From contig NZ_CP036291.1 in assembly GCF_007750855.1 (NCBI RefSeq), forward strand, positions 6,174,905 to 6,238,904: a stretch of DNA of 64,000 nucleotides, read 5' to 3'. A program made the translations under genes and the position numbers. Source of the stretch: Pirellulimonas nuda (GTDB lineage Bacteria; Planctomycetota; Planctomycetia; Pirellulales; Lacipirellulaceae). Shown here in pieces: positions 54,337-60,000 of the stretch. How positions within the stretch are numbered: the stretch's first letter is position 1; each line of letters opens with the position of its first letter. A model generated the notes under the pieces. That model had not been told where the DNA came from. It saw only the letters and a list, made by a program, of their open reading frames with translations, and searched no databases.

Positions 54337-55344
54337 ATGGCTGATAGCAACGCTGGCGCCGCGCCCGAGCGCGAAGAACTGATGCGCCGGCTGCGCGGGC
54401 GCGTGCAGCAGATGGAGTCGGCCAGCCGCCCGGCGGGCGCGGCCATCTCTACCGGCGCGGCGGGCCTCGACCGCCTGCTCGCGGGCCCCGGCGCCCCAGC
54501 GGGCATGGCCCCGGGCACGCTGATCGATTGGGTCGCTTCCCCGCGTTCCAACCCAACGCCAACAGCCGACGGGCTCCGCCCCGTCGCCGCGCGTCGGTGG
54601 ACTCACCACCCCGACACGCGCCGACGGGGCGGAGCCCGTCGGCTAGCTGCGACTGGGGGCGGCGGCGCCTGCCTCCCCGCGTTGTGGTGTGCTTGGCGGG
54701 GTTGTGGGCGCGGCGGAGAGCTGGTGGTGATCGACCCCCGCGGCGCGTTCTACCCCCCCGCCGCCGCGGCGTGGGGGGTCGACCTGCGTCGGCTGCTGCT
54801 GGTCCGCCCGTCGGGCCCCAGAGACTTGTTCTGGTCGCTGCTGGCGGCGCTCCGCTCCCCCGCGGTCGGCGCGGTGTGGGCCGAGTGCGACCGGATCCCC
54901 ACACACACGTTCCGCGCGCTCTGTCTGGCCGCGGAAGAAGGAGGGACCCTCGGCATGCTCGTGCGCCCGGCCAGCGCGCTCGACGCCCCCACCTGGGCAG
55001 ACGCGCAGCTACGCGTCTCGCACGCGCCTAGTAGCAGCGCGAGCATTGCGCCCAATAGCTGCCGACCTACGGTCGGCGCGGACCACGCACATCACTCCGT
55101 GCGGGCGCACCAAGCAGAGCGCCCGCGCCAAGCGGATCGCACCGACCTTAGGTCGGCAGCTATTGCGGGCGTGCGGGAGGGGCTCGATCGCTGCCTGACG
55201 CTCACCCTCACGCGTCGCCGCGGGGGAGCCGCCGGGGGCGCGGTGACCCTCTCGTTCGACCCCGACGCCGGCGCGCTGCGCGAATACCCCACGAGCCAAC
55301 CCCCAAGCCAGCACCCCGCATGCCCCCTCGCACCCTCTGCGTAG
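54337..55344 (+). CDS. imuA: ImuA-like protein of the SOS mutagenesis cassette, with two repeat insertions
   Basis: 335 residues, GGAGG five bases before the ATG. RecA/SulA-like ImuA: TGAAGLDRLLAGPG, GMAPGTLIDWV, GELVVIDPRGAFYPPAAAAW, RLLLVRPSGPRDLFWSLLAA and GAVWAECDRIPTHTFRALCL. It is thought to help load the translesion polymerases at damage. Residues 76-103 (PTADGLRPVAARRWTHHPDT...) and about 239-277 (CRPTVGADHAHH...DLRSAAIA) are encoded by palindromic repeats and probably do not belong to the original fold. The first insertion sits just after the point where the P-loop would be expected, and no intact Walker A is visible. It overlaps imuB by 25 bases. Confidence 0.85.
   Translation: MADSNAGAAPEREELMRRLRGRVQQMESASRPAGAAISTGAAGLDRLLAGPGAPAGMAPGTLIDWVASPRSNPTPTADGLRPVAARRWTHHPDTRRRGGARRLAATGGGGACLPALWCAWRGCGRGGELVVIDPRGAFYPPAAAAWGVDLRRLLLVRPSGPRDLFWSLLAALRSPAVGAVWAECDRIPTHTFRALCLAAEEGGTLGMLVRPASALDAPTWADAQLRVSHAPSSSASIAPNSCRPTVGADHAHHSVRAHQAERPRQADRTDLRSAAIAGVREGLDRCLTLTLTRRRGGAAGGAVTLSFDPDAGALREYPTSQPPSQHPACPLAPSA
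54564..54644 (+). repeat. 81-bp palindromic repeat, copy inside imuA
   Basis: Perfect 23-bp arms 54564-54586 and 54622-54644, starting AGCCGACGGGCTCCGCCCCG. 81 bp long, so a whole number of codons (27). The same-length copy lies at 56886-56966 between imuB and dnaE2. Confidence 0.92.
55053..55165 (+). repeat. Palindromic repeat, CAATAGC family (copy inside imuA)
   Basis: Arms 55053-55079 and 55139-55165 match at 25 of 27 positions; left arm starts CAATAGCTGCCGACCTACGG. Differs by one base from the intergenic copy at 25394 over that part. It is translated as part of ImuA. Confidence 0.9.
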
Positions 55345-57018: not shown

Positions 57019-60000
57019 ATGCCGTACGCCGAGCTCCACTGCAAGACGAACTTCTCCTTCCTCGAGGGGGCGTCGCACGCCTCGGAGCTGGCCGCGCGTG
57101 CCGCGGAGCTGGGCTACGCGGCGCTGGCGGTGACCGACCGCAACAGCCTGGCGGGGATCGTCCGCGCCCACGGCGCGGCCAAGGACCTGGGGCTCAAGCT
57201 GCTGGTAGGCGCCGAGGTGACCCCCCGCGACGCGCCGCCGGTGGTGCTGTGGGCCACCGACCGCGCCGCCTACGGCCGGCTCTGCCGGCTGCTGACCATC
57301 GGCCGCCGGCGGGCGCCCAAGGGGGAGTGCGAGCTGCGGTTCGCGGACATCGCCGAGTATTCGGAAGGCCTACTCGCAGGAGTAATCCCCCTCCCCCTTC
57401 AGGGGGAGGGGCTAGGGGAGGGGGCGCCCCGCAGCAAACGCCCGCCCCAGAACCAACCGTCACCTCCGCCACACCCCCTCCCCATGGGGGAGGGAGCACT
57501 CGCGCGTTACCGCGAGTTGTTCGGCGACCGCGCCTACCTGCTGGCGGAGCTGCTGCGCGACGGCGACGACCGCGGCAAGCTGGCCTCGCTTCAAGCACTG
57601 GCGCGGCGCACCGGGCTGCCGCTGCTGGCCGCGGGAGACGTGCATTACCACGCGCCCGAGCGCCACGTCGTGCACGACGTGCTGACCGCCATCCGCACCG
57701 GCGCCACCGTGGCTGGCGTCGACGGCGGACCGAGTTTTGCGAATGCTCAGCGGCACCTGCGACCCGTTGAAGAAATCGCGGCGCTGTTCGCCCCGGCGCC
57801 CGACGCGGTCGCACGCACGGTCGAAGTCGCCGATCGCTGCCATTTCTCACTCGACGAGCTGCGGTTCGAGTACCCCACCGAGCTGGCGCCCGACGGGCTC
57901 ACGCCGATCGAGTTCCTCACCAAGCTCACCTGGCAGGGCGCCGCGCAGCGTTACCCAGACGGGGTCCCGCCGAAAGTCCGCCAGCAGATCGAGCACGAGC
58001 TGACCCTGATCCGCGAGCTGCGCTACGAGGCGTACTTCCTCACCGTGTGGGACCTGGTGCGCTACGCCCGCAGCCGCAACATCCTCTGCCAGGGCCGCGG
58101 CTCGGCCGCCAACTCGGCGGTCTGTTACGCGCTGGGCGTGACGTCGGTCGACCCCGCGACCAGCGACCTGTTGTTCGAACGCTTCGTCAGCAAGGAGCGG
58201 GGCGAGGCGCCCGACATCGACGTCGATTTTGAGCACGAACGCCGCGAGGAGGTGCTGCAGTACCTCTACCAAAAGTACGGGCGCGACCGCGCGGGGCTGG
58301 CCGCCACGGTCATTACCTACTGCGCACGGTCGGTGGTGCGCGACGTCGGCAAGGCGCTGGGCCTGTCGCCCGACCGGGTCGACGCGCTCGCCAAGCAGCT
58401 CGAGGGCTACCGCGAAGAGCCCAAGCTGGCGCAGCGCTGCGCCGAAGTCGGCATCGACCCCGGGTCGCCGCTCGGCAAGCGGCTGATCTATGTGGTCACG
58501 GAGATGATCGGCTTTCCCCGGCACCTGTCACAGCACGTCGGCGGGATGATCATCACGCAGGGGCCGCTGTGCGAGCTGGCGCCCATCGAGAACGCCGCGA
58601 TGGAAGACCGCACCGTCATCCCGTGGGACAAGGACGACCTGGACGAACTGGGGATCCTCAAGGTGGACTGCCTGTGCCTGGGGATGCTGACCGCGATCCA
58701 CAAGTGCTTTGACCTGATCGAGCAGCACGAGGCCCGGCCGCTGACGCTGGCCAGCGTGCCGCAAGAAGACCCGGCCGTGTACGACATGATCTGCCGGGCC
58801 GACACGCTGGGGGTGTTCCAGATCGAGAGCCGCGCGCAGATGACGATGCTGCCTCGGCTCAAACCCCGCACGTTCTACGACCTAGTGATCGAGGTAGCGA
58901 TCGTCCGCCCGGGGCCGATCCAGGGGCAGATGGTGCACCCCTACCTGCGGCGCCGGCAGAAGCTCGAGGACGTGGTTTACCCCAACGACGCCATCCGCCA
59001 GGTGCTGCACAAGACGCTCGGCGTGCCGATCTTCCAAGAGCAGGCGATGAAGCTGGCCGTAGTGGCGGCCGGCTTCACGCCGGGCGAGGCGGACCAGCTC
59101 CGCCGCGCGATGGCCGCCTGGCGCCGGCCCGGCGTGATCGACGCGTTCCGCAAGAAGCTGCTCGATGGAATGCTTGCGACTGGCTTGAGCGAAGAGTTCG
59201 CCCTGCGCGTCTACCAACAGATCCGCGGCTTCGGCGAGTACGGCTTCCCCGAGTCGCACGCGGCCAGCTTTGCGCTCTTGGTGTACGTGTCGGCGTGGCT
59301 CAAGCACTACTACCCGGCCGCGTTCTGCGCGGCGATGGTCAACAGCCAGCCGCTGGGCTTTTACGCGCCGGCGCAACTGGTGCGCGACGCACGCGAGCAC
59401 GGCGTTGAGGTGCTGGGGGTGGACGTGAATCGGAGTGCGTGGGATTGCACGCTGGAGGGGGGGCGAGGGGTGAGGGGCGAGCGAACCGTACTCCCTCCCC
59501 GGCAGGGGGAGGGTTGGGGAGGGGGCGGAGCGGGCACACGTGGTGCATCGGAAGCGGACTTTGTACCCGGGGCGCCCCCTCCCCTAGCCCCTCCCCCTGA
59601 AGGGGGAGGGGGACTACGCGCGGCCTGCGGCCGCACTTGGATGCTCCGTCTGGGCCTACGCATGATCTCGGGGCTGCGTGAGGACGACGCCGAAGCAATT
59701 GTGCTCGCCCGCGGCGCCGGGCCCTTCACTTCCATCGACGACTTCAGCCGCCGCACCGGGTTGGGGCAGGCCGTGATCGCGCGGCTCGCCGGGGCCGATG
59801 CGTTTGGCTCGCTCGAGGTCAACCGCCGCGAGGCGCTCTGGCAGGCGCTGGCCGAGGAGCGCGGCGCCGCGCCGCAGCCGCTGTTCGACGCGCTGCCCGC
59901 CGAGGACGAGGCGCTCCCCGAGCTGCTGCCGGTGATGGGCGCCGACGAGGAGGTGGCGGCCGACTACCGCGCCACGGCCCTGTCGCTGCGGGCCCACCCG

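Follow-up and report, generated by a model that had tools for sequence, protein, structure and literature searches.

Why should the genes of an error-prone repair cassette carry palindromic repeats inside their reading frames and nevertheless stay open? The question is raised by the imuA-imuB-dnaE2 mutasome cassette of Pirellulimonas nuda, which lies in the 64,000-nucleotide stretch analyzed here (the window, i.e., bases 6174905-6238904 of a genome comprising a single contig of 6,618,662 bases; coordinates below are window positions unless given in Mb or kb). An initial sequence-only reading had listed two palindromes in imuA, two in dnaE2, and one between imuB and dnaE2, and an inverted-repeat search recovered all five. 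The four intragenic palindromes are doublets that are read in frame, and imuA, imuB, and dnaE2 are intact open reading frames (ORFs) around them, as had been claimed. We consider it likely that the elements are selfish and that an accessory cassette, probably induced by the SOS response, tolerates them in its permissive loops.

Three types of element are present. In imuA, a type A doublet (54564-54644; 34-nt arms, 94% complementary) contributes residues ~76-103 and a type B doublet (55048-55170; 33-nt arms, 88%) contributes residues ~238-278. The two dnaE2 elements are type C doublets in opposite orientations, one in a variable stretch that we term loop 1 (~57387-57498; residues ~123-160; recognized by motif and alignment) and one in loop 2 (~59486-59614; residues ~823-866). 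The fifth element, a second type A doublet, is extragenic and occupies the imuB-dnaE2 spacer (56885-56968, core 56888-56964; arms 56860-56916 and 56936-56992, 75%). RNA folding z-scores were -12.2 and -8.2 for the A and B doublets of imuA, -10.9 for the spacer element, and -5.3 for the loop 2 element; the loop 1 element folds weakly (z = -2.1), with 6 of 200 shuffles folding equally well. Across the window, motif matches exceeded shuffle means for all three types (A, 7 vs. 0.11; B, 4 vs. 0.00; C, 5 vs. 0.35). Another inverted repeat, with 34-nt arms (91%), lies just 3' of dnaE2 at 60364-60467.

Each type represents a repeat family dispersed over the genome. The consensus sequences are AATAGCCGACGGGCTCCGCCCCGTCGG for type A and AATAGCTGCCGACCTACGGTCGGCGCG for type B, weak positions being counted in, and CCCTCCCCCTTCAGGGGGAGGGG plus a C-rich tail for type C. 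That the palindromes are multi-copy was borne out when they were counted genome-wide: pattern searches returned 128 matches for A (at most 2 mismatches; 100 listed), 69 for B (at most 2 mismatches), and 35 for C (at most 3 mismatches, corresponding to 19 places on both strands), compared to none for any reversed control. The matches listed comprise 77 A, 52 B, and 15 C elements (144 in sum). Inverted pairs are closely spaced, with start-to-start distances of 53-58 bp for 21 of 23 A pairs, 46-84 bp for 16 of 17 B pairs, and 112-140 bp for the four C pairs; single, unpaired elements are also common (46/87 A, 30/54 B). These are the properties of repetitive extragenic palindromic (REP) sequences and their REPIN doublets, i.e., short, dispersed, multi-copy palindromes that are mostly extragenic and form closely spaced inverted doublets. 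Type C was found in 10 of 43 genomes of the same taxonomic family, and type A in two of the 43, namely the present genome and another with 2 matches, indicating that A spread in this lineage.

We performed a census of where the elements lie relative to genes, using 156 deduplicated A, B, and C elements (the listed matches together with those in fetched stretches). Genes were called with a codon model for which 60 sampled stretches served as training data (coding fraction 0.83), an element was scored as in frame when the open frame containing it was coding both before and after the element, and elements less than 300 bases from a stretch end were skipped. The classifier placed 10 of 156 in a coding frame (A 4/87, B 4/54, C 2/15), or 11 once the second dnaE2 element, which it had missed, was added; for random sites, the figure was 565 of 1000. 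The test for enrichment in coding DNA that the sequence-only reading had proposed thus gave the opposite result, namely avoidance. Nor did the expectation of families with a general in-frame behavior hold, since A and B avoid genes and only type C comes close, with two elements in dnaE2 and up to two in ileS; a fourth palindrome family, D, has 1 of 23 elements in a frame, and that ORF scores as non-coding. Four of the 11 in-frame elements belong to imuA and dnaE2. Among the remaining hosts are ileS (matching tRNA-synt_1 and Anticodon_1), an FtsJ-domain protein, and proteins named by eye as FtsK-like, CoA-ligase-like, phosphotransferase-like, and trypsin-like, plus one unnamed; some of these are perhaps native matches, as may be the single-element calls at loci L276, L280, and L309. 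In ileS (locus L181, ~5.130 Mb), the pattern search placed a single type C element in frame, and inspection of the translation by eye suggested another stretch resembling type C. This gene is essential and, to our knowledge, is not a known SOS gene. In-frame insertion is therefore rare, and the mutasome is its heaviest host but not its sole one.

Comparison with homologues supported the proposal that the inserted residues should be gaps in most of them, as was the case in most of the alignment rows examined. For DnaE2, the alignment comprised 93 sequences (the window and 92 others, duplicate loci L073 and L077 having been dropped), with loop 2 rows seen for 26 homologues; for ImuA, rows were seen for 14. 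The same-family relative Aeoliella straminimaris (genome G006) accounts for loci L156 and L077. Loop 1 (DnaE2 residues 118-165) measures 48 residues in the window protein, with a median of 24 and a maximum of 113 (rank 21 of 93), and loop 2 (residues 812-876) measures 65, with a median of 14 and a maximum of 80 (rank 3 of 93). Together, the two loops account for the bulk of the core-length variation (standard deviation 26.8 of 31.9 residues; rho 0.89, n = 91 after 2 of the 93 rows, with a short core, were dropped), and in L080 and L092 they are occupied by plain tandem stretches (by eye). In ImuA, the A insert immediately precedes the part of the protein aligned with the P-loop region and is a gap in most homologues; L153 ImuA has its own insert at this position. 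The B insert precedes the C-terminal strands. An AlphaFold model of ImuA (11 sequences, mean predicted local distance difference test score [pLDDT] of 73) falls below a pLDDT of 50 at residues 79-107, 234-266, and 268-283 and at both ends, the internal stretches lying near the inserts at 76-103 and 238-278. The corresponding DnaE2 model (15 sequences, mean pLDDT of 65.7) falls below 50 at 127-155 and 816-871. As a separate matter, DnaE2 core length has been linked with genome GC content in the relevant part of a published study (PMC3919608). GC-rich palindromes were rejected as the basis of this link in the present set, with a rho of -0.23 between core length and locus GC; for loop 1 length, rho was -0.55 (n = 91).

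The concentration of elements at the cassette is itself unusual. With its five elements, in the order A, B, A, C, C, the cassette is the densest 5,049-bp stretch for the 144 elements listed in the 6.62-Mb genome; the runner-up is a cluster of four B elements at 360.7 kb. In 5000 simulations, a cluster of five arose anywhere at a frequency of 0.0008 under uniform placement and 0.0026 with the region from 2.2 to 4.2 Mb excluded, and these simulations ask for the maximum anywhere even though the site had been chosen beforehand in the sequence-only reading. The density was said to be far above that of the rest of the window, where we indeed found only a single B doublet, at 25398-25474, besides three unpaired A-like elements (1, 3, and 3 mismatches). 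A cruder measure was less striking, repeated 16-mers being at least as abundant in 5 of the 240 bins of 5 kb that were sampled. The cluster is a real and statistically unusual case of an already described phenomenon. Listed A, B, and C elements are themselves unevenly distributed, at ~2 per Mb between 2.2 and 4.2 Mb compared to 19-47 per Mb in the remainder of the genome. Since cumulative GC skew, as sampled, stays high beyond ~3.1 Mb, this palindrome-poor region may be on the terminus side.

Inserts of other repeats occur at the same places of DnaE2 in other genomes, those of unrelated bacteria among them. Strong hairpins were found in loop 1 at L153 and L094 and in loop 2 at L166, L132, L139, and L151, with a repeat-like insert there in L153 too; two further DnaE2 hairpins lie outside both loops (L132 near residue 70, L110 near residue 285). 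Copy number was examined for L132 and L139. In L132, a Sphingomonas metagenome-assembled genome, the insert repeat has 31 matches at ~13 places, two of which coincide with its dnaE2 inserts, and in L139 (Erythrobacter donghaensis) it has 7 matches in its own genome. The L132 cassette also parallels the window in having hairpin inserts in frame at three sites, two within dnaE2 and one within imuB. Across the 93 DnaE2 genes, inverted repeats with an arm of 11 numbered 43, compared to 19.8 expected from codon shuffles. With the window excluded, mutasome genes totaling 435 kb contained 9 strong internal hairpins (at least four seeds of 12 nt; 7 in 92 DnaE2 genes, 2 in 61 ImuB genes, and 0 in 27 ImuA genes), from seven genomes, compared to 1, from one genome, in 359 neighboring ORFs totaling 428 kb (one-sided p = 0.011, ranging from 0.0009 to 0.023 across 20 threshold settings). 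These p-values are optimistic, given the genome numbers just stated, the selection of loci for their resemblance to this DnaE2, and the relatedness of some of them. A control using DnaE1, with both strands read, gave a weak contrast. Under the seed rule, 2 of 15 DnaE2 genes of the family (L153, L166) and 1 of 35 DnaE1 genes scored, the DnaE1 hairpin probably lying ahead of the start codon and the window's own elements falling below the rule; without it, the two differed little, as the counts for DnaE1 and DnaE2 were 10/35 and 7/15 at arm 11, 6/35 and 4/15 at arm 12, and 3/35 and 2/15 at arm 13. The L351 DnaE1 hairpin falls within residues 1-66 of an ORF read from stop to stop and probably precedes the start codon, and the L345 ORF looks, by judgement, like a wrong frame.

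The host genes lie side by side on the forward strand and each matches its family, which identifies an ImuA-ImuB-DnaE2 mutasome. The dnaE2 gene (57019-60357), encoding an error-prone C-family polymerase, matches NF004225 at 1416.6 bits, and imuB (55320-56852), encoding a Y-family-like protein, matches PF00817 (IMS). For imuA (54337-55344), encoding a RecA-like protein, the match to NF033429 (E = 1.5e-18) reaches 67.4 bits, under the model cut-off of 150, and the profile search gave no Pfam match; ImuA does align with homologues that adjoin ImuB and DnaE2. A codon-model gene finder places the ImuA start at 54724, 3' of the first palindrome. Homologue alignment and the predicted fold favor the longer ORF, although its start codon remains a prediction. 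The sequence-only reading had counted a 21-bp tandem array in imuB among the repeats. The array is present (55816-55895, forward strand; 3.8 copies encoding LPAAALS repeats; located by tandem repeat search and aligned by eye), but it is not palindromic and apparently consists of copies of a native LPxxALRL-type motif that it echoes.

A candidate LexA-type operator, ATAC-N4-GTAC, is located upstream of imuA at 54304-54317 and agrees with 8 of 10 positions of a GTAC-N4-GTAC-like box. Similar boxes were seen by eye upstream of imuA in 10 of 11 relatives and, at 9 of 10 positions, upstream of the genome's own lexA ORF (L361). Matches scoring at least 8 are frequent (7 in the window, 78 in 1.2 Mb), so that a single box is weak evidence and conservation is the stronger point; the cassette may be under LexA control. 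The TGTAC-N4-GTAYA-like boxes at imuA and lexA represent a candidate planctomycete LexA operator.

We also searched for an enzyme that might mobilize the elements. The genome contains 15 Y1_Tnp matches, five of which are 163-aa ORFs that score nearly alike, and four ORFs match the REP-associated tyrosine transposase (RAYT) model NF047646 but, at 67, 61, 51, and 41 bits, fall short of its cut-off of 80. In the 14 loci surrounding all 15 Y1_Tnp matches, scanned with flanks of 1.5 to ~3 kb, none was flanked by A, B, or C elements, and RAYT linkage of these families was not found. It is because no RAYT gene is flanked by them that we call them REP/REPIN-like; mobilization by a RAYT-type single-strand transposase is nevertheless our inference. 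Membership of A and B in the GTAG REP superfamily was not borne out, the first base of their NTAG tag being mixed (type A, n = 118: A 62, C 32, G 21, T 3; type B, n = 68: A 45, G 19, T 2, C 2). Elsewhere in the genome, at L339:2665-3410, a 180-aa Y1_Tnp-like ORF just under the Pfam cut-off has family D doublets on both sides. Its size resembles that of the rare class 3 TnpA_Y1 of planctomycetes, as described in part of one paper (PMC6006769).

Our favored account would run as follows. Three short mobile palindrome families would have been copied into imuA-imuB-dnaE2 as REP/REPIN-like inverted doublets. Insertions that broke the frame or the fold would have been lost, whereas those that kept the frame and fell within flexible ImuA or DnaE2 loops would have persisted as added, probably disordered and near-neutral peptides. 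The cassette would stand out for two reasons: loop length in its proteins is free to vary, and insertion is cheap in a mutasome that is accessory and induced by damage; DnaE2 was nonessential in all genetic studies known to the authors of one paper, according to the part concerned (PMC3919608). The presence of type C in frame in ileS also fits with tolerance. Several points weigh against this account. Two of the 15 type C elements are in dnaE2, but 7% of random placements put two C elements within 2.4 kb, so that the dnaE2 pair alone proves little. The element in the short imuB-dnaE2 spacer is left unexplained by tolerance, and loop 1 is as long or longer in 20 of 92 homologues and hence not unusually long here. 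The DnaE2 model also falls below a pLDDT of 50 in the conserved core, providing no clean test of the loops and thus weak evidence for them. The genus is represented by one genome, so the comparison lacks an empty-site allele from a close relative; no RAYT gene adjoins the elements, the nearest B doublet being ~1.8 kb from a RAYT-like ORF; and that the insert-bearing proteins still work is a presumption.

The pattern could alternatively reflect targeted landing, in which REP transposition by HUH (Y1) transposases, requiring single-stranded DNA and raised by DNA damage, hits SOS genes more often as they are being transcribed at that time, with permissive loops filtering the survivors. The excess of strong hairpins in mutasome over neighboring genes (9 vs. 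1), the multiple inserts per cassette in L132 and L153, the LexA-like boxes upstream of imuA and lexA, and the element in the spacer are all consistent with this. So are the triggering of ISDra2 transposition by irradiation in Deinococcus, described in part of one report (PMC2806898) for an element assigned to IS200/IS605 in part of another (PMC6006769), and the many intragenic REPs in replication and repair genes noted in sections of a 2013 study (PMC3733652). Tolerance, however, predicts an identical pattern, the contrast with DnaE1 of the same family is weak, and the other intragenic hosts, as far as identified, are unlike repair genes. Moreover, ileS, which is not a known SOS gene, carries type C in frame. 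We regard targeting as an unlikely but serious rival, and its extension, that mutasome cassettes across phyla are preferred REP landing zones through damage-induced single-stranded DNA during SOS transcription, as slightly more doubtful still; if true, it would constitute a feedback in which the response to DNA damage time and again alters loops in its own error-prone polymerase. The earlier suggestion that the repeats could alter or tune mutagenesis, framed here as inserts that change polymerase or ImuA activity and are kept for adjusting it, found no support. Repeated insertion into the same cassette in several genomes would agree with such tuning, which was also proposed in the 2013 study (PMC3733652, in the sections concerned), but the repeats differ between lineages, the loops also hold plain tandem repeats and other length variation, the ImuA segments are of low confidence and predicted to be disordered, and most homologues seen lack an insert; tuning is very improbable. 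Scarcely credible is that these are native protein segments, palindromic by chance in GC-rich DNA. The loops are naturally variable, and loop 1 is matched in length by the homologues mentioned above, but each family's DNA is shared by 15 to more than 70 elements, of which nearly all are extragenic, and the inserted residues were not seen in the homologue rows examined, distant homologues without palindromic DNA included.

How, then, do these elements compare with known systems? REPINs consist of two inverted REPs with a short spacer and form dispersed populations. A, B, and C resemble those described in the relevant part of Bertels and Rainey (2011; PMC3116915) in being dispersed inverted doublets of short spacing. 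They differ in lacking a linked RAYT and in including many singles. Rickettsia palindromic elements (RPEs), nearly half of which sit in genes in R. conorii according to the part of the source concerned, are likewise read in frame within host proteins (PMC10969869); A and B differ from them in largely avoiding genes, with C being intermediate, and thus do not share the general in-frame habit of RPE-like families. The closest parallel is a 2013 BMC Genomics study of intragenic REPs, reportedly by Di Nocera and colleagues. Its relevant sections describe REPs inside genes that include DnaE2, uvrA, recB, and tRNA synthetases, many of the host genes acting in replication and repair, as in-frame monomers or dimers adding 20-30 residues, with double hits per gene and speculation on mutators (PMC3733652). 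Our literature search, which mostly lay outside subscription papers and supplements, found no case of REPs in ImuA, ImuB, or a planctomycete mutasome, and to that extent the claim of no prior description stands; for DnaE2 REPs and the mutator idea it does not, both having appeared in that study. In-frame REPs in DnaE2 and a tRNA synthetase and double hits in one gene are common to both, whereas the elements here are NTAG-tagged (A and B) or C-rich (C) and imuA is also hit. The 2013 authors judged REPs in repair genes unlikely to be fortuitous, the sections concerned giving no counts against background (PMC3733652); here, counts are set against an element census, neighboring genes, and DnaE1, and the DnaE2 loops are mapped. 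The census, the neighboring-gene control, and the two mapped loops turn the puzzle of 2013 into a test of tolerance versus targeting, and mark natural permissive sites in DnaE2 and ImuA.

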